A DNA stretch of 30,213 nucleotides. Source: a virus. Below are positions 1,011 through 27,860 of this stretch, in pieces; positions within the stretch are counted from its first letter, which is position 1, and every line of letters begins with the position of its first letter. The notes beneath the pieces are model-generated. The model worked only from the letters and a program-made list of their open reading frames with translations, did no database searches and had not been told where the DNA came from. The position numbers and the translations under genes were made by a program. The stretch lies in the IMG/VR virus record IMGVR_UViG_3300036715_000563, positions 1-30,213 of that record. The stretch is one strand, 5' to 3'.

Positions 1011-1526
1011 ATGAATGAGACTAAAAGATATTATCCATCTGACATGCAATTAAATTTAGGTCAGCCTCGTGTCGTATTTACAGAACACCCAAATGGGCAT
1101 TTATGTATGTACGAAGACGTTGAACTAACAGTGAAGCGCAACAAAGAGCTTGAACAGCGCAACAAAGAGCTAGAAGCAGAGCTTAAGCGACTGCGTGAGC
1201 ATGTTGATTCATTATCCTGTGGCGTATCACGCGAGGCGTGGCACGATACAGCGTGGAGCTTATTACAGAGCAGGGCGATAGAAGACGGTGAAATAATGAA
1301 AGTCAATATTCATACAATCCGCACCGTATTCAATGCAACTTATGATGCGCTTGCAGGTTCTGCGCTGACAAAACCAAATCCAGCACAAGAGATGCCATCC
1401 GAGCTGATTGAATGGGCTAATAGCTGGCAAGAAGATGATAGCGATATGCCTGCCTATCTAATTGGATATAACGACATGGCGCATTTTGTAAAATCACAAC
1501 TTGAAAAAATGAAAGGTGGTGTGTAA
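1011..1526 (+). CDS. coiled-coil phage protein, unknown function (171 aa)
   Basis: The frame starts at ATG 1011, 11 bases after the micro-gene's stop, with only a weak purine-rich sequence upstream. Residues about 35-68 form a charged coiled coil containing a direct repeat (RNKELEQ RNKELEA). The C-terminal part has the pattern 'IEWANSWQEDDSDMPAYLIGYNDMAHFVKSQL', shortened here to IEWANSWQEDD and YLIGYNDMAHFVKSQL, which looks like a small helical domain. The stop overlaps the next start as TAATG. No known family could be assigned; probably an early accessory protein. Confidence 0.7.
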   Translation: MNETKRYYPSDMQLNLGQPRVVFTEHPNGHLCMYEDVELTVKRNKELEQRNKELEAELKRLREHVDSLSCGVSREAWHDTAWSLLQSRAIEDGEIMKVNIHTIRTVFNATYDALAGSALTKPNPAQEMPSELIEWANSWQEDDSDMPAYLIGYNDMAHFVKSQLEKMKGGV

Positions 1527-3900: not shown

Positions 3901-3929
3901 TTGACATAGAGTGGTATATAAGGCATAAT
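3901..3929 (+). promoter_or_regulatory. sigma70-type promoter P1
   Basis: TTGACA (3901-3906), a 17-base spacer and CATAAT (3924-3929) give a near-consensus promoter 30 bases before the ATG at 3959. It starts one base after the TAG of the previous gene. It shares an extended sequence with the promoter at 10812 (GGTTGACATAGA, then AAGG.ATAATAG, then CTAACT and a GGGAGA binding site). It probably drives the DUF3310-polymerase operon using host RNA polymerase. Confidence 0.75.
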
Positions 3930-3958
3930 AGCAGTTCTAACTAGAGGGAGAAGTAAAG

Positions 3959-4477
3959 ATGAATATCGCAGAATGCACATTCAGCATCGGGGAGACCCAA
4001 GCAAACATCGACGGTTCATACACCGCAACGATGGCAGCGCAGATAACTACACCAGAGGGTGTGTCGTGTATACGCAAGTCGGCGGTAGAGTTCCCCGCAG
4101 GCAGCCGCGCTATGGCTGAGGCAATTCGGGATGCGGCTGCTACGGGAATGGTATATAAAAAACCAGCAATGAGCGACGAAGTGGACGAGCTTATCAGTAC
4201 GCTTGAGGAAATGTTACACGGCCCTGCCGAGAGTATAAGCCCCGAGCCTACGTCAGCAAAGGATAGACAAGTAGGTGGTGACCACTATAAAAAGCTGGGC
4301 ATGTATCAACCTTGGGAGGTGCTAGAGCATTGGCTAACACCCGAGGAGTTCCGTGGGTATATGAAAGGCACAGCCATTGCGTACCTAGCCCGCGAGAAAG
4401 ACAAGGGCGGCGACACAGACATATCCAAGGCAACGCATACCCTACAGGGGTTTCTCGAAACACTGACTAAGGAATAG
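3959..4477 (+). CDS. DUF3310-containing protein (172 aa)
   Basis: The C-terminal part, residues about 100-168, matches DUF3310: RQVGGDHYKKLGMYQPWEVL, then a YMKGTAIAYLAREKDKGG segment and a final KATHTLQ helix, corresponding to the 'QvGGdHY...iqPwevi...GNaikYlaRyk.KgG..Dl.KA.hyl' pattern known from many phages and often called SaV-like or nucleotide-kinase-related without firm proof. The N-terminal 90 residues are separate and not recognised. The gene is the first behind promoter P1 and has the binding site GAGGGAGA (3944-3951). Its role in phage DNA metabolism is inferred from its position next to the polymerase. Confidence 0.8.
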   Translation: MNIAECTFSIGETQANIDGSYTATMAAQITTPEGVSCIRKSAVEFPAGSRAMAEAIRDAAATGMVYKKPAMSDEVDELISTLEEMLHGPAESISPEPTSAKDRQVGGDHYKKLGMYQPWEVLEHWLTPEEFRGYMKGTAIAYLAREKDKGGDTDISKATHTLQGFLETLTKE

Positions 4478-4479
4478 CC

Positions 4480-6360
4480 ATGGATATTGTGACGTTGGAC
4501 TTCGAGACGTATTACGGGGCAGACTTCACACTATCTAAGCTAACCACAGAAGCCTACGTGCGTGACCCTCGATTCGAGGTTATCATGTGCGGGGTTAAGC
4601 GGAACGATGAGCCTGGGTACTGGGTGGATGCACCAGATGTAGCAACACATTTGCAGGCGATGAACCTTGAGAACCACGGTGTGCTGGCACACCATGCCCA
4701 CTTCGATGGACTGATACTATCCCACCACTATGGTATTAAGCCGAAGGCGTGGTTCGATACACTGTCCATGGCACGGGCTATTCACGGCGCTAACGGTGGA
4801 TTGTCACTGGCAAAGTTAGCAGAGCGATACGGGATAGGCGCCAAGGGCAATGAGGTAATACATGCTAAAGACCTGCACAGGAAGGACTTTAGCCCAAGTA
4901 CCATAAAGAAGTACGGCGCGTACTGCGTACAGGATTGTGACTTGGAGCGTGCGCTGTTCCTCCAGCTTATTCCACACTTCTGCAAGGGGGAATTAAAGCT
5001 GATCGACCTGATGGTGCGTATGTTTACGGAACCAGTGCTACAGATAGACGCACCTATGCTGGAGGAGTACGCGCAAGATATTCGGGCGGAGAAGGTTTCA
5101 CTGCTACTGCAGGCTGGCATACAGCTTACGGATGTAATGAGCAATGATAAGTTTGCCCTAGCATTGCAGAACCTTGGGGTAGTACCACCGCTCAAGGTTA
5201 GTCTGACCACTGGCAAAGAGACGTACGCTTTTGCTAAGACTGACCCTGCAATGGAGGCACTGGCGGAGCACCCAGATGAAGTAGTGCAGGCGCTTATCGC
5301 CGCTCGGCTGAAGAACAGGTCAACCATTAACGAGACCCGAGCACAGCGCATGATCGACATGATTAAGCGTGGGCCCGCCCCAGTATACCTAAAATACTAT
5401 GGCGCATCAGGAACAGGCCGAGCTTCGGGTGGCGACAAGATGAACTGGCAGAACTTCGGCAGGGGAGGTAAGTTACGCAAGTCAGTTATGGCACCGCCAG
5501 AACATGAGATTGTGGTAGGGGACTCATCCAACATCGAGGCACGGGTGCTGGACGTATTGGCTGGGCAGGAAGATGCTGTGCAGGTGTATAGGGATAATGA
5601 TGCCGGTGTCGGACCCGATACCTATTGCGTGCTTGCAGGTAAGATATACCATAGGGTAGTTACCAAGGCAGATAAGGATGAGCGGCAGCTAGGCAAAGTC
5701 GCTAAGCTAGGTCTAGGGTATGGCATGGGCGCGGTGAAGTTTGTTTCAGCAGTCCGCGCTATGGCTAGGAAAGTAATTAGCGAGGACATGTCAGCGTCCG
5801 TGGTATCGGTGTACCGAAATACCCACCCGCACGTCATCATGCTGTGGAAACGGGCGGAAGATTCACTCAAGTGGATACAGAAGGGTGTTGAGGGTCAGGC
5901 TATCGACCCTATGGGGATAGTGGTAACGTGTAAGGAAGGGATACTATTGCCTAACGGCATGAAGATTCGCTACCCAGACTTGAAGTTCAAGCCTAAAGCA
6001 TTCGGCATGGACGTCCCAGATGCAGGCTGGACGTTCTGGAATGGCAAGACCAGAGAGAAAATATACGGCGGTAAGATAGTTGAGAACATTGTGCAAGCGC
6101 TGGCTCGTATCGTCGTTATGGACCAGACCCTAGTGATCGCTGAATGGTGCGCTAAGAAGGCATCCACAGCCACCGCAGGGCAGGAATACCGAGTCGTGTT
6201 ATCAGTCCACGACGAGGTAGTATCAGTTGTACCAACGCAAGACGCGGTGGAGTGTTTGGAGTTTACTAACTGGGCACTGCGTCAACCGCCTAAGTGGATG
6301 CCAAACCTGCCACTATTTTCAGAAGGTGGTATCGGCGCTCGCTACGGCGACGCTAAATAA
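4480..6360 (+). CDS. polA-like: family A DNA polymerase with 3'-5' exonuclease (626 aa)
   Basis: This is the replicative phage DNA polymerase. The 3'-5' exonuclease motifs are LDFET (D7, E9), AHHAHFD (D76; the usual Asn is His72) and YCVQD (Y148, D152). In the polymerase domain, motif A is GDSSNIEARVL with D348; the O-helix (motif B) is RQLGKVAKLGLGYGMG with R402, K406 and Y414; motif C is HDE at 577-579. All catalytic acids are present. There is no 5' nuclease domain, and the length fits compact phage PolA enzymes. Position 410, equivalent to E. coli Phe762, is Leu (see finding). ATG 4480 follows the upstream stop by two bases with AAGGA as binding site; the stop overlaps the next possible ATG. 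Confidence 0.95.
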   Translation: MDIVTLDFETYYGADFTLSKLTTEAYVRDPRFEVIMCGVKRNDEPGYWVDAPDVATHLQAMNLENHGVLAHHAHFDGLILSHHYGIKPKAWFDTLSMARAIHGANGGLSLAKLAERYGIGAKGNEVIHAKDLHRKDFSPSTIKKYGAYCVQDCDLERALFLQLIPHFCKGELKLIDLMVRMFTEPVLQIDAPMLEEYAQDIRAEKVSLLLQAGIQLTDVMSNDKFALALQNLGVVPPLKVSLTTGKETYAFAKTDPAMEALAEHPDEVVQALIAARLKNRSTINETRAQRMIDMIKRGPAPVYLKYYGASGTGRASGGDKMNWQNFGRGGKLRKSVMAPPEHEIVVGDSSNIEARVLDVLAGQEDAVQVYRDNDAGVGPDTYCVLAGKIYHRVVTKADKDERQLGKVAKLGLGYGMGAVKFVSAVRAMARKVISEDMSASVVSVYRNTHPHVIMLWKRAEDSLKWIQKGVEGQAIDPMGIVVTCKEGILLPNGMKIRYPDLKFKPKAFGMDVPDAGWTFWNGKTREKIYGGKIVENIVQALARIVVMDQTLVIAEWCAKKASTATAGQEYRVVLSVHDEVVSVVPTQDAVECLEFTNWALRQPPKWMPNLPLFSEGGIGARYGDAK

Positions 6361-7182: not shown

Positions 7183-7866
7183 ATGAAGCCGTTAGCGTGG
7201 AGTCATAGCGCACTGAACGACTTTATAACCTGCCCTAAAGCGTACTTCCACAAGCGCATCGCTAAAGATGTACAGGATGTGCCGGGAGAAGCGGCAACGT
7301 GGGGCGACAGGGTGCATAAGGCGTTCGAGGGGTATTTGAAAGGGGTTAGTAGTGCCGAAGTAGAGATACGACTCGACCCCGAGCTGGAGATATATAAAGG
7401 ATATCTGGATGAGATAGCCGCCCGTCCGGGGGTAATGTATGTCGAGCAACAGCTGGCGATCAACAAACAGCTGGAACCGTGCGGCTGGTTCGATAAGGAC
7501 GTGTGGATGCGGGGCATCATTGACGTACTACATGTAGATGGAGACACTGGCACGGTGCTCGACCACAAGACAGGCAAGCCAAAGAATGACCCGAGGCAAC
7601 TCAAACTATTCGCGTTGTTGGTGTTTATCCACCATCCGGAAGTACAGGTTTGTAACTCGGAGTTTCAATGGCTGAAGTTCGGTACTACTGATAGCGCACG
7701 GTATTTGCGTAGCCAAGAAGCGGAACTGTGGCGGGAGATGCTACCGGACCTACTACGGTATCGTACGGCGTTCAAACTGGAAGTGTTTAACCCTAGACCA
7801 TCAGGGTTGTGTAATGGGTGGTGCCCGGTGAAGCAGTGCCAACACTGGAAACCGAAACGTAACTGA
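7183..7866 (+). CDS. PD-(D/E)XK nuclease, Cas4/RecB-like with predicted Fe-S cluster (227 aa)
   Basis: The protein begins WSHSALNDFITCPKAYFHKR, the start typical of RecB/AddB/Cas4-type nucleases. The active-site motifs are GIID (D114) and LDHKTGK (D127 and K129). Four Cys are placed as in Cas4 and AddB: C17 near the N-terminus and C210, C214, C219 near the C-terminus, predicted to hold a 4Fe-4S cluster. Such phage enzymes resect DNA ends for recombination. ATG 7183 follows directly on the HNH gene stop. The gene is followed by a 119-base gap that holds the minus-strand RNA unit. Confidence 0.9.
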   Translation: MKPLAWSHSALNDFITCPKAYFHKRIAKDVQDVPGEAATWGDRVHKAFEGYLKGVSSAEVEIRLDPELEIYKGYLDEIAARPGVMYVEQQLAINKQLEPCGWFDKDVWMRGIIDVLHVDGDTGTVLDHKTGKPKNDPRQLKLFALLVFIHHPEVQVCNSEFQWLKFGTTDSARYLRSQEAELWREMLPDLLRYRTAFKLEVFNPRPSGLCNGWCPVKQCQHWKPKRN

Positions 7867-7869
7867 GCC

Positions 7870-7904
7870 AAAAAATCCCCGCCGAACCGTGAGGTAAGGC
7901 GAGG
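7870..7904 (-). terminator. intrinsic terminator on the minus strand
   Basis: Read on the minus strand, CCTCGCC (7904-7898) pairs with GGCGGGG (7883-7877) through seven pairs including one U-G, then a 2x2 mismatch, then ACC/GGT closing a TCAC loop. ATTTTTT follows at 7876-7870. On the plus strand the U-G pair becomes a C-A mismatch and the run is A6 upstream of the hairpin, so the signal is oriented for minus-strand transcription. Confidence 0.7.
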
Positions 7905-7930
7905 CAAAGGACTCAACGAGGGAGATGAGT
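7870..7930 (-). ncRNA. candidate ~61-nt phage small RNA
   Basis: Promoter and terminator spacing predicts an RNA from about 7930 to 7870 on the strand opposite to all neighbouring genes. It would fold into a 5' hairpin (ACTCA 7930-7926 paired with TGAGT 7915-7911, loop UCUCCCUCGU) and the terminator hairpin with a U6 tail. It has no room for a protein. The C/U-rich loop resembles an anti-Shine-Dalgarno sequence. Transcription is predicted from sequence only. Confidence 0.5.
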
Positions 7931-7936
7931 GCTTCA

Positions 7937-7965
7937 ATTAGAGCATATCCCGTCGCGTCTGTCAA
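7937..7965 (-). promoter_or_regulatory. minus-strand sigma70-type promoter
   Basis: On the minus strand TTGACA (7965-7960), a 17-base spacer and TCTAAT (7942-7937) form a near-consensus promoter; the TG-C just before the -10 box adds an extended -10 element. It lies entirely in the gap between two plus-strand genes and points at the terminator 33 bases beyond its -10 box. It does not share the extended sequence of the two plus-strand promoters. Confidence 0.6.
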
Positions 7966-7985
7966 AAATGTAATGGAGTATTAAC

Positions 7986-8300
7986 ATGACCCCCGAAGGT
8001 AAAGTAAAAGAGCAGGTGAAGAAGTTACTCAAAGCATACGGTGCGTATTACCACATGCCAGTACAGAACGGGATGGGGTCGCCTACACTCGACTTTATCT
8101 GCTGTCTGAATGGCAGGTATATAGCTATAGAAACTAAGGCCCCCGGCAAACTTGCTACCGTCCGCCAGCAGAAGACCATGGAGGAGATATGTGTAGCCGG
8201 AGGCACGGCGCTAGTAATAGATGGCTCGGCGGAACACCTACGCCAGCTACAGGACTGGCTGATATATGTTACAACTACCGATAAGTTGAGCGCACCATGA
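7986..8300 (+). CDS. VRR-NUC domain nuclease (104 aa)
   Basis: This is a stand-alone VRR-NUC protein, a PD-(D/E)XK nuclease of the type found in phages and in FAN1, which acts on branched or flapped DNA. The visible motifs are the N-terminal helix (EGKVKEQVKKLLKAYGAY), PTLDFI with D36, and IAIETKAPG with E49 and K51, followed by the QQ-containing helix (RQQKTMEEI). The length is normal for the phage form. GGAG at 9-12 bases upstream supports ATG 7986. Its stop overlaps the helicase start (ATGA), so the two are probably translated together, as VRR-NUC/SNF2 pairs often are in phages. Confidence 0.9.
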   Translation: MTPEGKVKEQVKKLLKAYGAYYHMPVQNGMGSPTLDFICCLNGRYIAIETKAPGKLATVRQQKTMEEICVAGGTALVIDGSAEHLRQLQDWLIYVTTTDKLSAP

Positions 8301-10810
8301 TAATCCACGAAGAATCAAACTCTATCCTGCTACGGATAAAGAACCCAGAACTGATACGCAAAGTGCTCCCTAAGCATGTACGGGACATATCGGTACAGGG
8401 GCACAACCTGCAGGTGCGGCATGATTTGGACGCCGTAAAAGTCCTGCGTAATCTGGGCATCAAGGCGCCCAGCCCGATACGTACTCAGTACAACTGGCCG
8501 GGTAGGTTCGTACCGTTTGAGCACCAGAAAACCACGGCGGAGTTCCTGACGTTCTATAGTAAGGCGTTCGTGCTAAATGAAATGGGCTGTGTAGACGCTA
8601 ACACTGAGTACCTATCCCCCACTGGATGGCGACGCATATCAGACTACGACGGCGGGGAGGTCACGCAGTACGACAAGGACACGGGCGAAGGCTCTTTTGT
8701 GCAACCTACCGAATACGTCAAGTATCCGTGCAAGGAGATGATACGGTTCAAAACTACCCGGGGGGTGGACCAGCTACTAAGCGCAGAGCACCGAGTAGCC
8801 TACGTCGCATCCACGGGGGGGTTCATGGTAAAGTCTGCACAGGAGATAGAGACCGCGTATCGCAAGTCCAAGCGAGGCTGGGCAGGGCGGTTCATAACCA
8901 CGTTCGCCGGGAGCGGTGGGGAGGGAGTACCCCTCAATGACGCAGAATTACGGGTGATGGTTGCCGTAATTGCAGATGGGCACTTCGGGAAGGCGACGCC
9001 ATGGTGTGTAGTACGATTGAAGAAGCCGCGCAAAATAGCACGGCTTCGGGAGCTGTTAAGCAATGCAAGCATAGAGTACGTGGAGACCCAACCCGATTAC
9101 TCAGGCGCCGAAGGGTTCAGCGTGTTCAAGTTCTACGCACCTGCTCGGGAAAAAGAGTTCGGGGAGCGGTACTGGCAGGCTACCCCCGCACAGCTACAAG
9201 TGGTGGCGGACGAGGTGTGGCGATGGGACGGGGCAGTTCGGAAAGCGGGTGGGGTAGACTTCTACTCAACCTCCAAAGCGTCTGCAGATTTCGTACAGTA
9301 TTGTTTTTCCGCAGTGGGGAGAACAGCCACGATGTCATGCACCCCGCGTCAGAAATACAAGGACCTGTATGTTGTCCACGTGCAGGCAAGTGCCAAGTTA
9401 CGCTACCTGAAGGGGGCAACCACAGCGGGGGCGAAGAATAATAACGTGTGGCGGGAGGCATCGCCGGACGGGTTCAAGTATTGCTTCGAGGTGCCCAAGA
9501 CGTTCCTCGTTATGCGTCGTAACGGGTGCGTGTTCATAACCGGAAACACATCGAAAACAGCCAGTGCGCTGTGGGCAGCGGACTACCTCATGCGTATCGG
9601 CAAGATACACAAGGTGCTGATTATATCGCCGCTGTCCACGCTCGAACCAGTATGGCAGCAGGAGATTTTCGATGTGCTCATGCACCGCTCTAGCGTGCTA
9701 CTGCACGGGGCGCGGGATAAACGGTTTGACCTTTTGGCGTCCGATGCAGACTTCTACATAATAAACCCTGACGGGGTGGGGATCGTCGCAGATACGGTTC
9801 GTAAGCGCCTTGACATCGACTTGGTTATTATTGACGAGGCTGCTGCGTACCGTAACGGCACCACAAAACGATATAAAGACCTGCTGAAACTGCTACGCCC
9901 TGACGTTAGACTGTGGTTGATGACGGGCACTCCATGCCCGAACGCCCCGACCGACGCATGGGCGCTGGCGAAGCTGGTAAACCCCACGAAGGTGCCGCAA
10001 TACTTCACCTCGTGGAAGCGGCAGACCATGATGCAGATTACCTCGTATAAGTGGGTGCCGCGCCCAGACTCGTACGATATGGCGTTCCAGGCAATGCAAC
10101 CGGCTATACGGTTCAAGAAGTCAGAGTGTCTGGACTTGCCACCAGTAACGTACGAAAACCGCACGTGTGAGCTATCACCGGAACAGAAGCAAGCATATAA
10201 GGAAATGAAGAACTACATGGCGGCTGAAGCCTCTAGTCACCAGATCACTGCGGTCAACGCGGCAGACCAAGTGGGTAAGCTGCGGCAGATACTATGTGGT
10301 GCGTTCAAGAACCCAGATACCGAGGAATACGTAGCTATGGACCATGCGCCGCGATTGAAGGTGTTGCTAGAGTGCATACAGGATGCAGGGGCGAAAGTGT
10401 TGGTGATAGTTCCATACAAGGGCATCATCAACATACTAAAGGAGGAAGTAGAGAAGCACTACACCTGCGACATTCTGAACGGCGACGTGTCGCGTACTAA
10501 GCGTACCGAGATTATTACTCGGTTCCGCCGCGAGACCGACCCGCACGTACTGCTGTGCCACCCGAAGGTAATGGCACATGGTCTGACACTTACCGAGGCC
10601 GATATGGTGGTGTTCTATGCGCCCATATACTCGAACGAGGAGAGCCAGCAAGTCATGGACCGAATCAACCGTCCGGGGCAGAAGCTAAAGATGACAATTG
10701 TTCGTATAGGGGGTGCGACGCTGGAGTGGAGTATCTACGCAATGGTTGAAGGCAAACGCCTGTCGCAGGAAAGCATACTTGAGCTATATAAAAAAGAATT
10801 GGAGGTATAG
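8297..10810 (+). CDS. SNF2-family helicase/translocase, interrupted by an intein (837 aa precursor, 517 aa mature)
   Basis: After removal of the intein (residues 98-417) the protein is a compact SNF2-type superfamily 2 ATPase. The rejoined Walker A loop reads NEMG-TSKTASALW; the usual second Gly of GTGKT is Ser here. Motif II is IIDEAAAYRNG (D513, E514), motif III LMTGTP at about 540, and the C-terminal RecA domain carries the motif V/VI region MAHGLTLTEADMVVFY and QQVMDRINRPGQ with the arginine finger. Such phage proteins are thought to move on duplex DNA or remodel forks and recombination intermediates. The start overlaps the VRR-NUC stop. Promoter P2 follows the stop directly. Confidence 0.93.
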   Translation: MIIHEESNSILLRIKNPELIRKVLPKHVRDISVQGHNLQVRHDLDAVKVLRNLGIKAPSPIRTQYNWPGRFVPFEHQKTTAEFLTFYSKAFVLNEMGCVDANTEYLSPTGWRRISDYDGGEVTQYDKDTGEGSFVQPTEYVKYPCKEMIRFKTTRGVDQLLSAEHRVAYVASTGGFMVKSAQEIETAYRKSKRGWAGRFITTFAGSGGEGVPLNDAELRVMVAVIADGHFGKATPWCVVRLKKPRKIARLRELLSNASIEYVETQPDYSGAEGFSVFKFYAPAREKEFGERYWQATPAQLQVVADEVWRWDGAVRKAGGVDFYSTSKASADFVQYCFSAVGRTATMSCTPRQKYKDLYVVHVQASAKLRYLKGATTAGAKNNNVWREASPDGFKYCFEVPKTFLVMRRNGCVFITGNTSKTASALWAADYLMRIGKIHKVLIISPLSTLEPVWQQEIFDVLMHRSSVLLHGARDKRFDLLASDADFYIINPDGVGIVADTVRKRLDIDLVIIDEAAAYRNGTTKRYKDLLKLLRPDVRLWLMTGTPCPNAPTDAWALAKLVNPTKVPQYFTSWKRQTMMQITSYKWVPRPDSYDMAFQAMQPAIRFKKSECLDLPPVTYENRTCELSPEQKQAYKEMKNYMAAEASSHQITAVNAADQVGKLRQILCGAFKNPDTEEYVAMDHAPRLKVLLECIQDAGAKVLVIVPYKGIINILKEEVEKHYTCDILNGDVSRTKRTEIITRFRRETDPHVLLCHPKVMAHGLTLTEADMVVFYAPIYSNEESQQVMDRINRPGQKLKMTIVRIGGATLEWSIYAMVEGKRLSQESILELYKKELEV
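8588..9547 (+). mobile_element. intein with LAGLIDADG-type homing endonuclease domain (320 aa)
   Basis: The in-frame insert begins at Cys98 (CVDANTEYLSPTGW, block A), has SAEHRV (block B) near residue 170, and ends with block F/G, YCFEVPKTFLVMRRNGCVF then ITGN with Asn417; the +1 residue is Thr418. The penultimate residue is Gly rather than the usual His. Between the splicing blocks lie two endonuclease motifs, VMVAVIADGHFG with D227 and VWRWDGAV with D311, so both acidic residues are present and the nuclease may be active. It interrupts the Walker A loop between MG and TSKT, a site that can work only after splicing. Boundaries are given by the block consensus. Confidence 0.92.
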
Positions 10811-10811: not shown

Positions 10812-10841
10812 TTGACATAGACACGAAATACAAGGTATAAT
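10812..10841 (+). promoter_or_regulatory. sigma70-type promoter P2
   Basis: TTGACA (10812-10817), an 18-base spacer and TATAAT (10836-10841) lie 24 bases before the ATG at 10866, immediately after the helicase TAG. It shares with P1 the leading GGTTGACATAGA, the AAGG.ATAATAG block and CTAACT plus a GGGAGA binding site, so both are copies of one promoter type. It likely drives the 10866-12882 operon. Confidence 0.8.
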
Positions 10842-16311: not shown

Positions 16312-16574
16312 ACGAGCCAGTACAGTACGAGAAGGTACCCTACATAGCTGACTGCATACAGTGGAGGGGGGACAACGCGGAGGCTGTCATTGCCTTGCTA
16401 CCCGAAGATGCGAAGGCGTCAGTATCCACCATATACCTAACCATCCGATACCGAGATGGGATAACCACGTTAGTACCTGGGTGGTGGGTAGTCCGCGGGC
16501 AGAATGGGGAAGTGAAGTGCTACGACGACGCAACACTCCACGTTAAGTATCGCCCCGTGGTATTTGGGCGATAG
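16308..16574 (+). CDS. conserved small phage protein with PGWWVVRG motif (88 aa)
   Basis: The pattern IQWRGDNAEAVIALLP, then a beta segment, LVPGWWVVRGQNGEV and a C-terminal VKYRPV matches a common phage family ('aiqWtGdN..evl.fl...a.pGdwivrg..Ge...c....F...Y.pv') whose function is unknown. It overlaps the primase stop by ATGA and is the last gene of the plus-strand module, facing the convergent virion genes across the hairpin at 16585. Confidence 0.8.
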   Translation: MNEPVQYEKVPYIADCIQWRGDNAEAVIALLPEDAKASVSTIYLTIRYRDGITTLVPGWWVVRGQNGEVKCYDDATLHVKYRPVVFGR

Positions 16575-16584
16575 ATTTTGCTAG

Positions 16585-16610
16585 ACTACACGCCGGTTAT
16601 TGCGTGTAGT
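16585..16610. terminator. perfect 9-bp hairpin between convergent modules
   Basis: ACTACACGC (16585-16593) is complementary to GCGTGTAGT (16602-16610) with an 8-base loop. It lies between the plus-strand stop (16574) and the minus-strand genes, and the minus gene's TAA (16599-16597) falls in the loop. U-runs are short on both sides (TAAATT on plus; CTAGCAAAAT on minus), so bidirectional termination is likely from position rather than from a classic U tract. Confidence 0.55.
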
Positions 16611-18549
16611 TAAATTGCTCAGCGCTAGACGAACTCTGACCTGCGCTAACGCTGTTCGAGTAGGATATACCGGCGGAGTTCGAGACACTGGATGTTAGCC
16701 CGCCGTGTAAATTCACCGCCGACAACGCAGACGCCGCCAACTGGGCTGACACCGTTGCCCCCGCTTTTGTTGCTTCTACCAAGAGTGTTACCTGCTGAAT
16801 CAGCGTCTGTATGTTTGCCTTTGCCGCCTCGATGCGCACGTCAGCGGCAGCTACGGCAACATCGGATTCAGCTTTGTACACGGTTGCTTCCGCGTTGACA
16901 CGGGACGCCTCACCTTGAGTCTTGCTCTCGAACGCCCGGGTTTCAGCATCGAAGACGCTAGTTATCGCGCCTACTCGGGCAACTTCTGCATCCACCTCTA
17001 CCCGGTACGCCTCAGTACGCGACTTAAATAAATCCATCGGCACTTCCTGACCTACCTTAATCTCAGCGTTTTGTACTGCTACCTGTGCATCTACGAATGC
17101 CCTAAACCCATTCACTTGGCTGCCGTAGGCGTCCGCTTGCGCCTTAAACACGTCGACCTTAGATACCTCAGCGCGTACCTGAGTGGCGTACGCATCATAC
17201 TCCGCAGCCTTAGCGCGTACTGTTTCTCCATAGGCTCCGACCTGTGCAGCGTAAGAATCTATCTGCACCTTGTTCGCGCCTGCGACGGCGTTAGCAGCCT
17301 CTACTTGGGCGCGGAACACATCGACGAGGGCCTGTGCCGCAGACACTTCAGTACGGTATATGTCTACGCGTTGCGAATTTAGCGTACCGATTAGATGCTG
17401 ACCCTCCAGCTGAGCCTTATATATCTCCAGCTTGGTTAGCTCGGCCTGTATCGCAGCTCGATAGACCTCTACCTGAGCTGCGTATGCCTGCACTTCTTCA
17501 CGGTAGCGCCCTACTGTCTCGCGGTAGATATCTATAGCTACTTGCTGTGAGAAACGTGCGACGTCAAATGCACGCTGCGCAATTTGGTTGGCGTAGGTTA
17601 TAAGCCCTTCCTCCACCTTCCACGCTTGCTCGAACGCAAAGCGGCGGTTAGACTGCTCAAGGTCTGCCTGCTTAATCATTACATCACGGGACAGTGTACT
17701 GCCAGCATTTTGGGCGTCCTGTGTGGCTGCCAGAAGCTCGGTAGACATTGCGCCCGGAGGTTTTCTGAACCCGCGTGTTGCGAACGAGCGTAGCACCTCC
17801 TGCGCTTTGCGTAGTGAGTTCGTAGTCTCACGCGCACGCCCCTGGTCCCATATCGCCTGTTCCACAGCTGGACTTAACCCCGTAGCCGCGCCGTTCACCC
17901 AGAGCAGTAGCTGTGCGCGTAGGTCGGTAAGCAACCCCGAGGTGTACGTGGTATCTGCGAAACTGAAAATGTAGTCAGGAGCTAGTGGCGAGTCTGGCAG
18001 CACCGCAGTAAATGTAGGCAATGTGAGTAGCGGGGTAACCGGCACATCCACCCCAAGTAAATCAGGCACTTCTGGCAGTGTTAGCGGCTGCTCGGCGGGG
18101 ATGATTACGTCCGCGAGGGTAGGTACCGAAGGTAGTTGAGCGGATAGCGGCGCGGGCACGGCTATGTCTAGGTTTACAACAGGTACCTCAGCAGTGAACT
18201 CAGGTGCTCCACCAACGTCCAGAGGAGCTACGGTCGCTAACTCCGGCTCTACCGGTACAGCAGGTAAATTTAGTGTTGTGCCTGTTGGGTCGGCAGGGGG
18301 GTTTGTTGGAATATATGGGTGGATGACCTGTGTAACAGGCCCAAGCTCATCCGAAACGATAGGCAGATTCGCCAACCCAGCGGTAACCTGCGCCAAACTA
18401 TCTATAAAGTTTTCCGCGTCTGTAAATGCCGCATCGGCGTATCCTGTCGCTCTGCTCCAGCCGTTGACCACCAGCTGGGAGGTCATATTATCCTTATCCG
18501 TTATCGGGACAAAAGCTAAGGGGTCTATGGTGGGTAGCGTTAGTGGCAT
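16597..18549 (-). CDS. long coiled-coil virion protein, probable tail/internal protein (650 aa)
   Basis: The start ATG 18549 has AAGGA upstream. The N-terminal 190 residues are rich in short Pro motifs (LPTI, LPAVP, LPEVPD, LPSVPTL). From about 270 to 590 the sequence repeats Ala/Tyr/Val-rich heptad- and 11-residue-type units such as VQAYAAQVEVYRAAI and VDVFKAQADAYGSQV, forming a very long coiled coil. The tail is Ser-rich (SNSVSAGQSSSS). Proteins of this build occur next to tail genes in podoviruses and are thought to be structural. It is the last gene of the minus-strand module; a filament- or fibre-like role is inferred. Confidence 0.7.
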   Translation of the reverse strand: MPLTLPTIDPLAFVPITDKDNMTSQLVVNGWSRATGYADAAFTDAENFIDSLAQVTAGLANLPIVSDELGPVTQVIHPYIPTNPPADPTGTTLNLPAVPVEPELATVAPLDVGGAPEFTAEVPVVNLDIAVPAPLSAQLPSVPTLADVIIPAEQPLTLPEVPDLLGVDVPVTPLLTLPTFTAVLPDSPLAPDYIFSFADTTYTSGLLTDLRAQLLLWVNGAATGLSPAVEQAIWDQGRARETTNSLRKAQEVLRSFATRGFRKPPGAMSTELLAATQDAQNAGSTLSRDVMIKQADLEQSNRRFAFEQAWKVEEGLITYANQIAQRAFDVARFSQQVAIDIYRETVGRYREEVQAYAAQVEVYRAAIQAELTKLEIYKAQLEGQHLIGTLNSQRVDIYRTEVSAAQALVDVFRAQVEAANAVAGANKVQIDSYAAQVGAYGETVRAKAAEYDAYATQVRAEVSKVDVFKAQADAYGSQVNGFRAFVDAQVAVQNAEIKVGQEVPMDLFKSRTEAYRVEVDAEVARVGAITSVFDAETRAFESKTQGEASRVNAEATVYKAESDVAVAAADVRIEAAKANIQTLIQQVTLLVEATKAGATVSAQLAASALSAVNLHGGLTSSVSNSAGISYSNSVSAGQSSSSAEQFNYTQ

Positions 18550-18573
18550 ATTATTAGTTCCTTGTGTTTAGCG

Positions 18574-19887
18574 TTATGCTGATACTTCGGTCTTGAAGAT
18601 AGCTACCCCATACGCATTCTGTATAGGAGGGTTGGTTAGCGCTTGGAGTGCCGGTGCGAGCGTGGTCGCATTCCATTGGGTAGCCGGTTGGGTGACTATC
18701 GGGGTTACTGAACTGCAAGTACCTACCAGTATTTTACCACTATCAGACACCGCGAACACCTCAGAGCTAGTCACGCCCGGCTCAGGGTTTATCCCTGCTG
18801 GCAGTTCTAATCTTTGTAGCCCGGTAGCCTGTGTCCAAACCCCGGCGAAATCATCAGCTAATACAGCCACGATAGAGCCGTCGTACGAAAATGCTGTAAC
18901 TTGGCTATATCCGGCGGCTATCCCTAACTCATGAGCGTGTCCGTCTGCTGTCCAGATGATGGCCCGGTTGTTAGTTCCATCGGCGGCGTATGCGTTCCCC
19001 CCAATTAACTTACCATCGCCGGAAATTGCGAACGCAAAGCTATGCGCCGCCCCCGAGGGCATGTCCATTTCCTGAAACCCCGTTGCCGCAGTCCAGCGAA
19101 AAACGCTGTGGTAAGTGTCTGTGATCCCCTGCCCGAGCGCAGAGAGAAACTCACCAGTAGCGGATACCGCCATTACCGCTCCGTCCGAGGATAACCCTCG
19201 GCAGTACGCGTCGGAACCGCCGATGGGGGAGTAGTTTGGCGCCCCTAGATTCTCCCCCCCTGTCTCAATCGTCCAACGAAAAACATTGATTGTGGGTTGT
19301 CCGGTATATGTATGCACACTACCCCGCCCATCGCCAACTATTATCTTACCGTTGTGAGAGACCCCCCGCGCAGCACCATCCGCTATCCAATACTGCATCT
19401 GCAGCACCTGCACCATATCTTTCTTCTTGCGGTCCCATAGCACGGGTTGATTATAGTCTTGGCCTACTATTATAGACCCGTCACCAGATATGGCGTAGGC
19501 TACGCCGGGCACTGTGGCGTCTGCTAGTCGGGGTAGTACCACCTGCTTGCCTCCGTTATGCCAGTACACGGGTGCGCTCCATCCTGTCACCGGGTCTACG
19601 TCTGATCCCACTATTACTGTATTCCACTGAGTGGTGTGGTTGGCTTCTGCAGTGACACGGGGGTTAGGTACGAATGGTGCGTCTATGCGTATGGTATCGT
19701 GCCCAAACGTAGATGCAACGGTGATTACTGTGCCATCTGGCATCTGTACCCTGCGAGACAACTGCTGGAGTTTACTGAACTCCATGGACTTCTTCAGGAT
19801 GTCGAGTTGCAACGTCGCCTCGCCAGTATACGCCCTCGCCAACGCTGCGTCGCCTGTGTACCCTTTACGTAGCGATATACTAGCCAT
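18574..19887 (-). CDS. HAF-repeat tail protein, probable beta-propeller (437 aa)
   Basis: Start ATG 19887 is chosen because GGAAG lies 6-10 bases upstream; an earlier start at 19932 would overlap the previous gene further. After an N-terminal helical section (residues 1-60), the protein shows repeats of the HAF type: AISGDGSIIVGQ, SHNGKIIVGDG, SSDGAVMAVSATG, ISGDGKLIGGN, SYDGSIVAVLAD, SDSGKILVG, each followed by a VFRWT/IIWT/VWT strand. HAF-family repeats occur in secreted and autotransporter proteins and are predicted beta-propellers. It probably decorates the tail and contacts the host surface. The start overlaps the upstream gene stop by 8 bases. Confidence 0.75.
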   Translation of the reverse strand: MASISLRKGYTGDAALARAYTGEATLQLDILKKSMEFSKLQQLSRRVQMPDGTVITVASTFGHDTIRIDAPFVPNPRVTAEANHTTQWNTVIVGSDVDPVTGWSAPVYWHNGGKQVVLPRLADATVPGVAYAISGDGSIIVGQDYNQPVLWDRKKKDMVQVLQMQYWIADGAARGVSHNGKIIVGDGRGSVHTYTGQPTINVFRWTIETGGENLGAPNYSPIGGSDAYCRGLSSDGAVMAVSATGEFLSALGQGITDTYHSVFRWTAATGFQEMDMPSGAAHSFAFAISGDGKLIGGNAYAADGTNNRAIIWTADGHAHELGIAAGYSQVTAFSYDGSIVAVLADDFAGVWTQATGLQRLELPAGINPEPGVTSSEVFAVSDSGKILVGTCSSVTPIVTQPATQWNATTLAPALQALTNPPIQNAYGVAIFKTEVSA

Positions 19888-22048
19888 TGCTGTCACTTCC
19901 GCCCACTCGCCGGGTAAGTGCGCTGAACGCAATATCTACCGAGTTTAGCTCGAACTCCGCCCCATCCACGTTCTGAATCTCGAACTGCCAGTATCGGGCG
20001 TTCAAACCTTTGCCGACTTGAACGCGCCGGTTGTATAAGCCTGCGGCTCCTGTCGACGCGAGGGTGTAATCATAGGTACTATTGTCACAGGTCGTAACTC
20101 GCAGCAGTAACTCACCGTCGGTACGATACCCCACATACATGTTGTCTACGCGTTTGATGTGGGTTGTGCCGAAGTCTGTAATCCCGAGGCGAGCTACGGC
20201 ATCTATCGGTGCACCCGCGTCATTCGCCCCTGCCAACGCGAAAATACCCGCATCGCTCGCCCCGAGGTAGACCCCATTGAACTTGGCGAAACTGTTGAAA
20301 GGGTAGTTCGTATATGTGCTCAGCGCTTGGCTCTCGGTGTGCATCACAATTGCCGAGAAGTTCGCACCAGTGGACTCGTGCCCGGTTGCCGTCGCTAGTA
20401 TAAGGGGCAATGCCACTGTCGTGCTAGTTCCTTCTGCACGCAAGTATCCAGCTGACGTTTCTATATATAGCGGTAGCGTAACTGTGGACGAGGCCAATAC
20501 ACCAGTGTAGCCCTGCGCCGCCAATAGCATGCGCGATAGTGACGCAGTTGACGCTCCTTGGACGCCTACTACACCTGTACCCAGCGATACGATCTGCGAC
20601 AGCGTCCATGCTGAGGTCCCGACCAGTTGGGTGATTGCTGTCGATGCGGGTACGATATACTCAAGGTAAGCGGCAGAAGAACCAACCTGCCCTACTGCCC
20701 CAGAACCACTCGCAGAGATATTCTGTAGCACTGCGTTAGATACGCTGAGGGAACCACCTACGCCAGTAATATACTGTGACTCAACATCGCTGTACCCAGC
20801 TGCGCCCGCAAATGCTATGCCTGAAGCGATGATATTTGGGATAGATTGCGTCACCTGATACACATTAGTTACGCTACCCCCTGCCCCCGTGCCAGCGGCT
20901 GTGATTCCTTGCAGATAAATAGCTGGCGATGAGTCAGCTGTGCCATAGGCAGTTATATAGGATAAAGTCGCCGCGCTGTCCCCGCTTAGGGTGCTACCAG
21001 TACCTGCCGCAGTGGGGGTTAGTAGCGTCGCCGCACTATCCCCGTATTGGGGTGGTAGCAGCGGCCCTGCCGTAGTGATGTTCTGTAGGGTACCCGCACT
21101 AGTACCGACCAAGCCTGATATTATGTTCTGCAGCGTGGCCGAGCTGTCCCCCGAAGCTGGCGAGGGGATAATAGTAGCCGTAGACGTCGCCCAAGTAATA
21201 CCATCCGAGCTAACTACGGCATACTCCGCGCCATTGGCATACGATACCGCGCAGAATACCGTGCCGTTCCATATTATGTCTGTCCAGTACGCGTATGTTG
21301 GCAGCGAACCCTGTGTCCATGTGACACCGTCGGGGCTGGTTGCGTATGCGTTACGCGCACCATTACCGACGGCAGCGACGGTGCAAAATATGGTGCCGTT
21401 CCACGCGATGGCGTCCCAGTACCCGACTGGCATCGTGGTATATAGCGTCCACGTGATACCGTCGGGGCTGGTTGCGACATTGCTCGAATAGTATCCTGGG
21501 ATGGAGAATACCGTGCCGTTCCACGCGATAGCGCACCAGCCGGTAGTTGCTGGTAACGTCTGCTGTGTCCACGTGATACCGTCTGGACTGGTAGCGGCTA
21601 TAGTTGAGTTGTAGCTAACAGCACAGAATACTGTGCCGTTCCATGCTAGGGTGTACCAGTTTGCGGTTGCTGGTAGTGTCCGTTGTGTCCACGTGATACC
21701 GTCGGGGCTGGTAGCGGCTATATCTGAGTAGTAGCTAATAGCACAGAATACCGTTCCGTTCCACGCTACGTCGTACCAGTCCGTGTTTGCCGGTAGTGTA
21801 CGTTGTGTCCAGTGAACGCCGTCCGGGCTAGTCAGTGCTATATTTGTGCCATCAGCTACAGCACAAAATACAGTGCCATTCCACGCAATAGAGCGCCAGT
21901 TCTGGGATACTGGCAGCGTGTTTCGTATCCAGTTAGTACCATCCGAGCTAGTCGAGGCATAGCTGGTACCGAAGTCTACGGAACAAAATACGGTACCGTT
22001 CCACGCTACCGAGCGCCCATACACGGTGGGGGGGATTATGACTGGCAC
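19880..22048 (-). CDS. tail protein with N-terminal seven-repeat propeller and conserved C-terminal virion domain (722 aa)
   Basis: GTG start at 22048 has TAGGAG 8 bases upstream. Residues 12-293 are seven tandem repeats of 38-44 residues with the core AWNGTVFCAV and SPDGITWTQRTLP, a variant of the Asp-box pattern; seven units fit a closed beta-propeller. Residues about 295-560 are a different Gly/Ala/Thr-rich repeat region (GDSAATL, LQNITAAGTG and similar). The last 155 residues (FNSFAKFNGVYLGASDAGIF, ITDFGTTHIKRVDNMYVGYR, GLNARYWQFEIQNVDGAEFE) match a domain common to podovirus tail proteins. This suggests a tail-anchored C-terminus with an exposed propeller; receptor binding is inferred. 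Confidence 0.78.
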   Translation of the reverse strand: MPVIIPPTVYGRSVAWNGTVFCSVDFGTSYASTSSDGTNWIRNTLPVSQNWRSIAWNGTVFCAVADGTNIALTSPDGVHWTQRTLPANTDWYDVAWNGTVFCAISYYSDIAATSPDGITWTQRTLPATANWYTLAWNGTVFCAVSYNSTIAATSPDGITWTQQTLPATTGWCAIAWNGTVFSIPGYYSSNVATSPDGITWTLYTTMPVGYWDAIAWNGTIFCTVAAVGNGARNAYATSPDGVTWTQGSLPTYAYWTDIIWNGTVFCAVSYANGAEYAVVSSDGITWATSTATIIPSPASGDSSATLQNIISGLVGTSAGTLQNITTAGPLLPPQYGDSAATLLTPTAAGTGSTLSGDSAATLSYITAYGTADSSPAIYLQGITAAGTGAGGSVTNVYQVTQSIPNIIASGIAFAGAAGYSDVESQYITGVGGSLSVSNAVLQNISASGSGAVGQVGSSAAYLEYIVPASTAITQLVGTSAWTLSQIVSLGTGVVGVQGASTASLSRMLLAAQGYTGVLASSTVTLPLYIETSAGYLRAEGTSTTVALPLILATATGHESTGANFSAIVMHTESQALSTYTNYPFNSFAKFNGVYLGASDAGIFALAGANDAGAPIDAVARLGITDFGTTHIKRVDNMYVGYRTDGELLLRVTTCDNSTYDYTLASTGAAGLYNRRVQVGKGLNARYWQFEIQNVDGAEFELNSVDIAFSALTRRVGGSDSNG
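21170..22015 (-). repeat. seven tandem ~120-bp coding repeats
   Basis: Seven consecutive units of 114-132 bases encode the propeller repeats. Units three and four (about 21536-21775) remain very close at the DNA level, with shared stretches such as GTCCACGTGATACCGTC and CCGTTCCACGC, so copy number could change by recombination. Confidence 0.85.
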
Positions 22049-22080
22049 TTATACGCTCCTATCGCGAGATAAAGATCGCA

Positions 22081-22854
22081 TTACAGTGTTGGCAGGGTGC
22101 GAGTCCACGTAGAAATCGTCGTCGTTGCAGTCGCTGCTAGCGAGGTACTGCTCAGGTTTAGCTCAGCTCCAGAGGTTGCGATTGCACCATCTTCACGGTT
22201 GTACTTAGCAGCGTTATCCGCGGCACCTGTGTCCGACACACTACCGTACATACGATACCAGCCCGCTGTGCCGGACACCCCGTTTACCCCCGTCCATGAT
22301 TGCGAGCTGAGCTTAGATAGTACCGCACTAGCAGCTGCGCCGAAAAACAATCCGTTTATCCCAGCTACACCGCCTGACATATTAGCCACGGACGTTGTGA
22401 TTGTGGTGGATGTAGCTGCCACTACGAAGCCGTTAGGATTTACCCCTGTACCCGGCCGCGCGGTAATGGTTATTACCGCTCCGCTCGATGCTATATCATA
22501 GTCAACTGCTGACTGATAGTTTTCACACTGCGCAGCAACGTCAGACGCTGTCTGGGTTAAGGAGGTGTTGAATGGTACTGAGGTACCGAGGATATTCACA
22601 CCGTTAACAGAGATTGAGTCTACCGACCCTGCGGCACCTGCAGTGAGGGTAACAGAACCACTCGCCAAAACTTCGTTAGTAATCGCCGCGCTGTTATTGG
22701 TGATGGTACACAGTAGCGTTCCAGTTACCGCCGAGTCAGCGTTAGCTGGCTGTGCGCCCGTGTATATCTCGATGCGGCCACCTTGGAGCGCCTGTTTAAG
22801 TGAACCTTTTGCAGCCATAAAGTTGCGGATTGCGGTGCTGTAACGTAATGCCAT
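22081..22854 (-). CDS. conserved phage virion-associated protein, function unknown (257 aa)
   Basis: ATG 22854 has AGGAGA upstream and is preferred over an earlier start at 22944 that lies in the upstream gene. The N-terminus (LRYSTAIRNFMAAKGSLKQA, then RIEIYTGAQPANADSAVTG) matches a family seen widely in tailed-phage tail regions. Internal segments (VTLTAGAAGSVDSISVNGVN, VITITARPGTG) are beta-rich and the C-terminal part (WYRMYGSVSDTG, NREDGAIATSG) is conserved in the same family. A tail or decoration role is likely from the operon; no biochemical function is known. Confidence 0.72.
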   Translation of the reverse strand: MALRYSTAIRNFMAAKGSLKQALQGGRIEIYTGAQPANADSAVTGTLLCTITNNSAAITNEVLASGSVTLTAGAAGSVDSISVNGVNILGTSVPFNTSLTQTASDVAAQCENYQSAVDYDIASSGAVITITARPGTGVNPNGFVVAATSTTITTSVANMSGGVAGINGLFFGAAASAVLSKLSSQSWTGVNGVSGTAGWYRMYGSVSDTGAADNAAKYNREDGAIATSGAELNLSSTSLAATATTTISTWTRTLPTL

Positions 22855-22864
22855 GGTAATTCTC

Positions 22865-24088
22865 CTAGTAGTTTGAAACTGCGATAAATCGGTTTGGGCC
22901 GTCTTGGAACTGGGCCGCGCCGCGCCCGGATGCTGAGAACCCATAGCGGGTTCGAGTTAAGTTTTTTATTTCCAGTGAAGGCATGCCAACGCACAGACCC
23001 TGCGTCGTTAACCATACTGGTAGGGGTCTAGCCCCAGCGGAGTCGTCACCGAACAGCGAGCCATCGACATAATCTAGCGCCCCAATGACGGCGCCATAGT
23101 CCGTCTTCGGGATATACTGAAAAGCGTCTGGGTCACTACCCACCAGCACGCCGCAACTACGATCAGTTCCAACGAAGAAACCGCTGTCCGTACCTGACTT
23201 ATCCTCCATTGTCGCGAGTAGTGAAATTCGTCCATCGAGCTGCATGTAATTACGCAGGTCAAATAGCTCTAGCGCGTAGGGTTCGGAGAAATATAGGGTG
23301 TCGTCTACCGCCACGAACAGACGCCCGTGGTAGTACGCGATAAGCTGCCCTGCTGGTGGCGGCCCCATAAACTGGTTCATCAGCGGCGTGTTTAGCTCGG
23401 ACGTATCGTTCTGGTAGTCTGCGCTGAGGGTGGCATTATCGAGCACCAGAGCAAGGTACATGACCTCGCCGTTCGGCGTCGACAGGTACACCCCCTTACT
23501 AACAACGTCAGGGTCTGTCGAAACCGGCAGCGCGAACACTAAGCCGGAGCCAGCTCCGAGGGTGACCACCTGCGCTATGGATGCTCCAGACTCCTGCCCG
23601 TCGCGTCGGAAGTACGTCATGGTAAATTGGTAGGTACCGGCGGGCATATTGCCCACGGTCACTTCGGGGTAGGGCATCTCAGGGACTAGCATCCCCCAGG
23701 TACGGGACGCCCCGTTCTCCACGATGCCGGTCTGCTCGCCGTTAGTGAAGTAGATTCTATCGCCCTCCGCAACGTAGCTCATGAACAGCCCTGCAGTTAG
23801 GCCGTCGCGCAGTACAGAGGCTGAATAGGATGCGTCGAGCTGGTTAAGCTGGCTCCCAGAAACAAAGAGGGCAATCGAACCGCCCGCCCACAGGGAGTGA
23901 GCTGCACCTGCCCGGACGCTAGTGTACCCGTTGCGGCGAGACATCCTGCCACTGGTGTCGATATCTATGTTCTGTGCGACCGCCAAGTCGCCCGGATTGA
24001 AGCGGTCAGGGTCGACGTTGTTACGCAGTCCGGCGAAGTTCGTATAGAACCCGGATGGTGAACTGCGTACTTGAGTGTCGACCGCCAT
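22865..24088 (-). CDS. tail protein, beta-rich (407 aa)
   Basis: ATG 24088 is chosen because GGCGGAG lies about 8 bases upstream; a longer start at 24109 is possible. The N-terminus (NFAGLRNNVDPDRFNPGDLA, then DTSGRMSRRNGYTSV) is typical of a podovirus tail protein family in which these lines precede a propeller-like body; here further strands (RIYFTNGEQTGIVENG, YYHGRLFVAVDDTLYFSEP, GFFVGTDRSCGVLVG) follow the pattern. It is in tight order with the other tail genes. A role in the tail tube or nozzle is inferred from family context. Confidence 0.68.
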   Translation of the reverse strand: MAVDTQVRSSPSGFYTNFAGLRNNVDPDRFNPGDLAVAQNIDIDTSGRMSRRNGYTSVRAGAAHSLWAGGSIALFVSGSQLNQLDASYSASVLRDGLTAGLFMSYVAEGDRIYFTNGEQTGIVENGASRTWGMLVPEMPYPEVTVGNMPAGTYQFTMTYFRRDGQESGASIAQVVTLGAGSGLVFALPVSTDPDVVSKGVYLSTPNGEVMYLALVLDNATLSADYQNDTSELNTPLMNQFMGPPPAGQLIAYYHGRLFVAVDDTLYFSEPYALELFDLRNYMQLDGRISLLATMEDKSGTDSGFFVGTDRSCGVLVGSDPDAFQYIPKTDYGAVIGALDYVDGSLFGDDSAGARPLPVWLTTQGLCVGMPSLEIKNLTRTRYGFSASGRGAAQFQDGPNRFIAVSNY

Positions 24089-24118
24089 AGTATCTCCGCC
24101 TCGCTCCAAATGCTTCGG

Positions 24119-24127
24119 ATTATATCA
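24119..24127 (-). promoter_or_regulatory. possible extended -10 promoter
   Basis: On the minus strand TGA-TATAAT (24127-24119) is a consensus extended -10 box located at the end of the Rz gene and 31 bases before ATG 24088. No matching -35 box is present at the usual distance, so it is only a weak candidate for separate expression of the tail genes downstream of the lysis cassette. Confidence 0.25.
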
Positions 24128-24608
24128 GACTATTACCTTGGATAAAGTCTATCAAAGTATTTAATCTTGCGGCGCAGGTTTCGTAGTCTTTGTTGACATC
24201 TGCGACCCAGTAAGCGATGTCTGTATCTGAGGCAGATGCGCCGGCATCTTCTGCAGTAGGTTTGCTGGGGGTGGTACCAATTCGTGCTGTGTCGCCGGGC
24301 TGCAGCAAGCGGACAGCATCAGAACCGAGACAGAGCCTGCCAGTAGTGTATTTCGGGACATATTTGATAACCTCCACGGTTTTAGTGATGATAGTACCCT
24401 CGGCCACGGCTAGGCGACCGGAGAGCGCGTTGTTAAGTGCTACGTACTTGGCCACATTCGCAGCGTGAGCTTTATCTGCGACGACCTGCGCTGCATCCGC
24501 CTTGGCCTGCACGTGTGCCTCACCCTGTAGGTAACCGAAGCTGAACACGATCATAGCTGCAGCGGCTGCGATGAGTATGCGGTATGGTAGGGGTATTAGG
24601 TTAAGCAT
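24120..24608 (-). CDS. Rz: inner-membrane spanin subunit, Rz-like (162 aa)
   Basis: The N-terminus has one transmembrane helix (residues about 8-26, YRILIAAAAAMIVFSFGYLQG) followed by a periplasmic Ala-rich helical region (AKADAAQVVADKAHAANVAK) and a Thr/Pro-rich C-terminal part. With the nested lipoprotein this forms the spanin complex that fuses inner and outer membranes in the last step of lysis. ATG 24608 overlaps the endolysin stop, with GGGAGAA upstream. Sequence similarity between Rz proteins is low; identity rests on topology and the embedded Rz1. Confidence 0.85.
   Translation of the reverse strand: MLNLIPLPYRILIAAAAAMIVFSFGYLQGEAHVQAKADAAQVVADKAHAANVAKYVALNNALSGRLAVAEGTIITKTVEVIKYVPKYTTGRLCLGSDAVRLLQPGDTARIGTTPSKPTAEDAGASASDTDIAYWVADVNKDYETCAARLNTLIDFIQGNSLI
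24161..24361 (-). CDS. Rz1: outer-membrane spanin lipoprotein, Rz1-like (66 aa), nested in Rz
   Basis: It is encoded wholly inside Rz in another frame and has its own strong binding site (GGAGG, 9 bases before ATG 24361). The signal peptide MSRNTLLAGSVSVLMLSAC ends in a lipobox LSAC with Cys19 as the lipidation site; the mature part is Pro-rich (VPPPANL), as usual for Rz1. It would sit in the inner leaflet of the outer membrane and bind Rz across the periplasm. The nested arrangement is the lambda type. Confidence 0.88.
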   Translation of the reverse strand: MSRNTLLAGSVSVLMLSACCSPATQHELVPPPANLLQKMPAHLPQIQTSLTGSQMSTKTTKPAPQD

Positions 24609-25077
24609 TAGTTTCTCCCATGCACTGTTTATACTCGGTCTGCCGACGGAGCGTAAGCCCCTTCAATGGCTTGCCGTGGAACTTGTCCCAGACCAGTATC
24701 TGCTGGCAGGCACCCGCGTAGTCCTGCTGGTTTAGCTTGCGCACCAGCGTCGAGTTACAGAAGGCACCATGACCTATATTATAAGTCAAGTCTACGTACG
24801 CGTCGTATTCGTACTGGTACAACGGTACCTTAACGCAGTTCTTAATCGCGCCCTCAAACTTCTGCACACTGGCTAAAGACCTAGCTAGCGCTACTGGCGG
24901 GGTGGTATGGTCACCCATTTTTACGCCGTCCGTTGTGCCAAACCCGATAGTTGGTACGTCGCCTTTGACTGGGATGACTGCGGTGTCAGTGTAGCCTTCG
25001 TGCATGACAATCCCCACCAGTGCAGACGCGGACAGAGTCAACCCAGCGATGGCGTTCCGAGTACGTGGTTGTATCAT
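24601..25077 (-). CDS. SAR-type endolysin, glycoside hydrolase 24 family (158 aa)
   Basis: The start is ATG 25077, which overlaps the stop of the 22-codon ORF as ATGA; longer frames from 25110 or 25152 run through that ORF. Residues 9-25 (AIAGLTLSASALVGIVM) are a weakly hydrophobic Ala/Gly/Ser-rich segment, the mark of a signal-anchor-release helix that lets the enzyme leave the membrane when it is depolarised. Catalytic candidates follow directly: E27 (HEGY), D40 (KGD) and T48/T49 (TIGFGTT); the distance from E27 to T49 is longer than in T4 lysozyme. The rest (YEYDAYVDLTYNIGHGAFC, LVRKLN) is typical of this muramidase family. Confidence 0.88.
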   Translation of the reverse strand: MIQPRTRNAIAGLTLSASALVGIVMHEGYTDTAVIPVKGDVPTIGFGTTDGVKMGDHTTPPVALARSLASVQKFEGAIKNCVKVPLYQYEYDAYVDLTYNIGHGAFCNSTLVRKLNQQDYAGACQQILVWDKFHGKPLKGLTLRRQTEYKQCMGETNA

Positions 25078-25357: not shown

Positions 25358-25386
25358 AGTATCTCCTATTTAGCAATACGTTAATT

Positions 25387-26514: not shown

Positions 26515-26520
26515 GACCCA

Positions 26521-27288: not shown

Positions 27289-27297
27289 TTGCTACTC

Positions 27298-27858: not shown

Positions 27859-27860
27859 AA

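Follow-up and report, generated by a model that had tools for sequence, protein, structure and literature searches.

What function resides in the largest gap between the replication genes of this virus, and is it carried by an RNA read against the direction of those genes? The window, meaning the whole stretch of DNA analysed here, comprises the 30,213 bases of a virus record. Its replication genes run rightward up to position 16574, whereas the genes for virion and lysis proteins read in the opposite direction, from the window end back to 16597 (late genes 16597-30208, minus strand). On the plus strand, the replication operon encodes a DUF3310 protein, a family A DNA polymerase, an HNH-like protein, a PD-(D/E)XK exonuclease, a small endonuclease (PHROG 93), an SNF2 helicase, an Rv2179c-like exoribonuclease and a DUF927 primase/helicase-like protein. 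The small endonuclease, whose gene was named VRR-NUC in the first-pass annotation, has no Pfam or NCBIfam match. Between the exonuclease and endonuclease genes lie 119 bp (7867-7985), and the list of open reading frames bears out that this is the largest gap between replication genes. As for the flanking gene content, the SNF2 helicase (8297-10807, plus strand) is extended by an additional N-terminal half, which matches a PHROG family annotated as PhoH-like and, weakly, one annotated as ribonucleotide reductase; the helicases of L015 (L numbers denote loci from viral contigs) and of the isolated phages Rollin and RHph_TM3_14A are shorter. The record end probably truncates the late gene at 28790-30208 (minus strand); this gene matches the NCBIfam PLxRFG (tail-700) domain and PHROG families, among them one with the annotation DarB-like antirestriction.

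The first-pass annotation had read the gap as a self-contained small-RNA unit on the minus strand, and all of the elements named for it are present in the sequence: TTGACA-N17-TCTAAT with an extended -10, followed by a predicted ~61-nt RNA that folds into a 5' hairpin and a U-run-ended terminator (Table 1). By consensus match the promoter scores 11/12; its -10 hexamer has a C at the second position, so that the usually essential A is missing, which is offset by the TGn extension. The terminator, CCUCGCC-UU-ACC-UCAC-GGU-UC-GGCGGGG-AUUUUUU, is oriented as claimed, since its U-G pair and U-run are confined to the minus strand and the plus-strand fold is bulged and lacks a U-run. The predicted RNA lies outside every codon and outside the ribosome-binding site of the endonuclease gene, and its fold has a z score of -3.95, with equally stable folds in 0/200 shuffles.

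Table 1. Positions of the predicted small-RNA unit and neighbouring features in the window, and composition of the corresponding units at related loci
Feature	Position	Strand	Details
Promoter and leader of the DUF3310-polymerase genes	3901-3958	+	TTGACA-N17-CATAAT
PD-(D/E)XK exonuclease gene	7183-7866	+	immediately before the gap, read along the operon; stop 7866
Intrinsic terminator (predicted)	7870-7904	-	7-bp stem and inner 3-bp stem, A then six U's; adjoins the exonuclease stop
Predicted small RNA, ~61 nt	7870-7930	-	start placed 6 nt after the -10; end at the U-run
5' hairpin (predicted)	7911-7930	-	ACUCA-UCUCCCUCGU-UGAGU, C-rich loop exposed
Extended -10, TGC-TCTAAT	7937-7945	-	hexamer TCTAAT at 7942-7937; 17-bp spacer from the -35
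Antisense -35 box, TTGACA	7965-7960	-	identical hexamer in L056, L059 and L210
Small endonuclease gene (PHROG 93)	7986-8300	+	ATG 7986, downstream of the gap; ribosome-binding site ~7974 outside the predicted RNA
L056 unit		-	TTGACA-N17-CATAAT; strong terminator ends at the exonuclease stop
L059/L015 unit		-	TTGACA-N17-CACAAT; strong terminator ends at the exonuclease stop
L210/L009 unit		-	TTGACA-N17-GACAAT; strong terminator ends at the exonuclease stop
L062 unit, fifth and weaker			TTTACA-N17-TACAAT inside the next gene; terminator at the corresponding place

Such a combination seldom arises by chance. When the gap sequence was dinucleotide-shuffled 5000 times, a promoter matching at least 10/12 consensus positions appeared in about 1% of cases, and a promoter of this quality together with a terminator in 1/5000. 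No promoter-terminator unit was found on the plus strand of the gap, and elsewhere in the window the minus strand has no promoter that reaches 10/12. A generic consensus scan overlooked the unit, because it accepts only promoters with A as the second base of the -10 and only terminators with loops of 3-8. On the plus strand, a perfect sigma-70 promoter (TTGACA-N18-TATAAT, 12/12) follows directly behind the helicase gene at 10812-10841, within the replication operon.

Among near relatives, the gap is almost unchanged in the contigs behind L001-L003, L022 and L024-L027. Positions 7931-7965 are identical, and the 95 nt of promoter and predicted RNA differ at one position in L025 and at one in L027, so that the whole RNA, including its hairpin, is kept. 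At fourfold degenerate sites of the neighbouring genes, 77/491 (15.7%) and 70/447 are changed (1/95 against 77/491, p = 6e-6; 1/95 against 70/447, p = 7e-6), and by these substitution counts purifying selection acts on promoter and RNA. Conservation extends to the plus-strand promoter of the DUF3310 gene and its leader, with 2 changes in 54 nt in L025, indicating that short control regions are commonly under selection here.

Further relatives were sought among approximately 290 loci from viral contigs, scanned by exonuclease, small endonuclease and helicase. L056, L059/L015 and L210/L009, whose exonucleases are ~49-57% identical to that of the window or, for L210, to that of L056, carry a unit at the matching place and on the matching strand. 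Together with the window clade, strict units are thus present in four lineages, all on the minus strand and with the -35 box 95-121 nt beyond the exonuclease stop, and in each locus the promoter of the unit is the sole minus-strand promoter of at least 10/12. Shuffling gave a unit in 0/5000 cases each for L056, L059 and L210, and in 5/5000 for L062, where the 5' hairpin of the RNA shows complementarity to the region in which the downstream gene starts. The predicted RNA folds of the lineages have z scores of -2.4 to -5.2, and their terminator hairpins are strong yet unrelated in sequence; the RNAs are too divergent for confident alignment. A search of 1.97 Mb of loci on both strands yielded 10 distinct forms of the strict unit; six of them are variants of this locus, and the other four are isolated single cases, all on the plus strand. 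The expectation that related phages would retain promoter boxes and hairpin while the bases between them vary was thus borne out, with 1/95 positions changed in near relatives and three distant lineages keeping boxes, strand, position and a terminator.

The distribution of the unit is nevertheless patchy. L055 (exonuclease 57% identical, within the best-supported clade), L057, L058 and most other exonuclease relatives are without it, and the unit is therefore dispensable or has been gained more than once. On the exonuclease tree the carriers cluster, with 4 changes against a shuffled mean of 6.6 (as low in 4/500 shuffles), but do not form one clade; losses or repeated gains must therefore be assumed. 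A nucleotide search of isolated phages gave no match, and protein searches gave distant relatives only, the exonuclease matching best in Rhizobium phages (36%). In RHph_TM3_14A and Xp15, the genes annotated behind the exonuclease overlap and leave no gap. A first scan of prokaryote genomes returned nothing and a second gave three distant loci, all without the unit. Two arrangements elsewhere in these contigs were also noted. In L009, a leader of ~30 nt (CCAGCTRTAGGTGTCAACTAATTATGAGGAGA) is duplicated before two neighbouring genes (4310-4341 and 4565-4596), and the first copy contains the antisense -35 box. L157 (IMGVR 3300014962_000024) has a sense-strand promoter-terminator unit (1014-1115, plus strand; TTGACA-N16-TAATAT with a strong terminator) behind the apparent end of a DNA polymerase gene; its RNA likewise exposes CUCCC and is possibly another small RNA at a different place.

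The conservation of boxes, strand, position and terminator strongly supports the proposed minus-strand unit, and on this comparative evidence the gap very probably holds a selected, oriented small-RNA unit. What the unit does is less certain, and it is with about even confidence that we take its main function to be antisense regulation of its own operon in an OOP-type manner, for which we infer transcription, pairing with the mRNA and the regulatory outcome. A sigma-70-type (host) promoter would drive a terminator-ended RNA of ~61 nt leftward against the rightward replication operon, with its 3' end just outside the exonuclease coding sequence. Being perfectly complementary to the exonuclease-endonuclease leader, the RNA could pair with it through its hairpin loops and lower the stability or translation of the endonuclease-helicase half. 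A possible outcome would be RNase III cleavage or reduced expression of this downstream half, comparable to the action of OOP RNA on cII. In addition, the C-rich 5' loop may cover Shine-Dalgarno sequences at other points of the operon, that of the DUF3310 leader among them. Since antisense complementarity to the other strand is automatic, the design of such an RNA would be kept while its sequence is free to change.

Alternatively, the RNA may act in trans, its C-rich loop masking Shine-Dalgarno sequences of phage mRNAs (the DUF3310 leader and others) or host mRNAs, with the antisense location being incidental; we regard this as rather unlikely. The first-pass annotation had pointed to such a target, describing the loop as a mimic of an anti-Shine-Dalgarno sequence that is complementary over 8 bases to the binding site of the DUF3310 gene. 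The match is real: with both strands searched, GAGGGAGA occurs in the window only at 7918, in the gap itself, and at 3944-3951, in the DUF3310 leader. As to a specific target, the match goes no further than generic complementarity, since an equal match to at least one of 26 leaders is reached by 8.2% of 10-nt loops after shuffling and by 8.9% of random 10-mers built around a CTCCC core; it is thus weak evidence for a candidate pairing site. The DUF3310 leader sequence AGAGGGAGAAGTAAAGATG is, however, unchanged in the three near relatives compared despite the exchanged N-terminus of the gene, and for this reason a loop-DUF3310 interaction may still take place. The exchange itself is seen at 3959-4180 of the window in comparison with L025, L026 and L027, where the first part of the DUF3310 coding sequence differs as if a cassette had been swapped behind the start codon. 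The anti-Shine-Dalgarno character of the loop also stands in part: in predicted folds, CUCC is unpaired in the 5' part of the RNA in all five lineages (the window, L056, L059, L210 and L062), but this largely follows from C-rich composition (product of shuffle frequencies ~0.01), and the recurring exposed CUCC is only suggestive as independent evidence. No target gene recurs among the lineages, although in L059, whose contig starts at the polymerase, the relevant leader may simply be missing. Because complementarity to the RNA's own mRNA is automatic, the exonuclease-endonuclease junction is no less plausible as a site of antisense action than the DUF3310/polymerase leader is as a target.

A third reading, which we consider improbable, holds that the act of transcription matters and not the RNA, the convergent antisense promoter interfering with operon transcription or aiding a nearby start of replication, as proposed for lambda pO. 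It is indeed promoter and terminator that are conserved across lineages. In lambda, transcription from pR is damped by the convergent pO and replication suffers when pO is lost, whereas the oop RNA itself seems to matter little (PMC3985674). Near relatives, however, conserve the entire RNA, hairpin included, the GC skew has no switch at the gap, and no origin features were identified. It is very improbable that the gap instead serves the plus strand, as a short leader ORF or a Shine-Dalgarno-like landing site between genes: the gaps do contain purine-rich, Shine-Dalgarno-like stretches followed by ATG, with a 19-codon ORF from ATG 7925 in the window, but the minus-oriented promoter and terminator would then be a coincidence in four lineages, and a leader peptide was rejected since the peptides do not resemble one another among lineages and both within-clade changes inside the ORF alter residues. 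Equally hard to credit is a hairpin that merely stops leftward read-through from the late genes, which do run toward the operon, since the junction between the converging early and late genes, 8.7 kb away, already has terminator-like hairpins for both directions, and such a role would not account for the constant position of a promoter in four lineages; this candidate was rejected as well. The junction hairpins, TCGCCC..GGGCGA and CTACACGC..GCGTGTAG, lie at 16550-16620, one for each direction.

Returning to antisense regulation within the operon, a broader proposal would be a phage small-RNA family that is kept by design and position and not by sequence. Each member, an antisense unit of promoter, C-rich anti-Shine-Dalgarno hairpin and terminator inside the replication operon of a group of uncultured phages, would provide feedback on the translation of replication genes and perhaps of host mRNAs; we put this forward tentatively and think it doubtful in this full form. 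Phage small RNAs are hardly known outside a few model systems, partly as sequence homology finds them poorly. The RNA described here is recognisable across lineages by its anatomy (strand, place, promoter boxes and terminator) despite full replacement of its sequence, and it sits at replication genes. If transcribed, it would represent a compact, testable regulator of phage replication and offer a search rule for more.

In Rfam, the predicted RNA has no match above the gathering threshold, and the best permissive match (E = 4) is irrelevant. Three known systems invite comparison. The mycobacterial C-rich-loop small RNAs B11 and 6C have C-rich stem-loops able to pair with G-rich 5' UTR regions (B11: PMC10470900). 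The feature of this class, an unpaired C-rich loop able to pair with Shine-Dalgarno sequences, is predicted in the five lineages and partly explained by composition; B11 and 6C are host-encoded, whereas the window RNA is phage-encoded, lies antisense in an operon and has a predicted loop pairing. Lambda PreS is likewise encoded by a phage and is regarded as a small RNA that aids phage replication (review PMC12197685). In contrast to the window locus, which lies inside the replication operon, PreS is Hfq-dependent and acts on host dnaN. Closest in layout is lambda OOP RNA (pO-tO), a short leftward RNA running from its own promoter to its own terminator against a rightward operon with replication genes (PMC3985674, PMC5869508). 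The overlap of OOP RNA with the 3' coding region of cII amounts to 52 bases (PMC5869508), and OOP RNA acts on cII through RNase III cleavage or reduced expression (PMC3985674, PMC5869508). The window RNA, by contrast, lies wholly in the gap (7870-7930, the exonuclease stop ending at 7866) and overlaps no codon. It has no relation to OOP in sequence, gene or phage group, no cII, O or P genes are seen in the window, and its neighbours are the PD-(D/E)XK exonuclease, the PHROG 93 endonuclease and the SNF2 helicase. It is therefore not a member of the OOP family, lacking both the overlap with a coding 3' end and the homology and cII/O/P context, but may still work like OOP. With its own opposite-strand promoter, recognised by consensus match, and its own nearby terminator predicted on the same strand, the window unit most likely belongs to the phage antisense small RNAs, a known kind.
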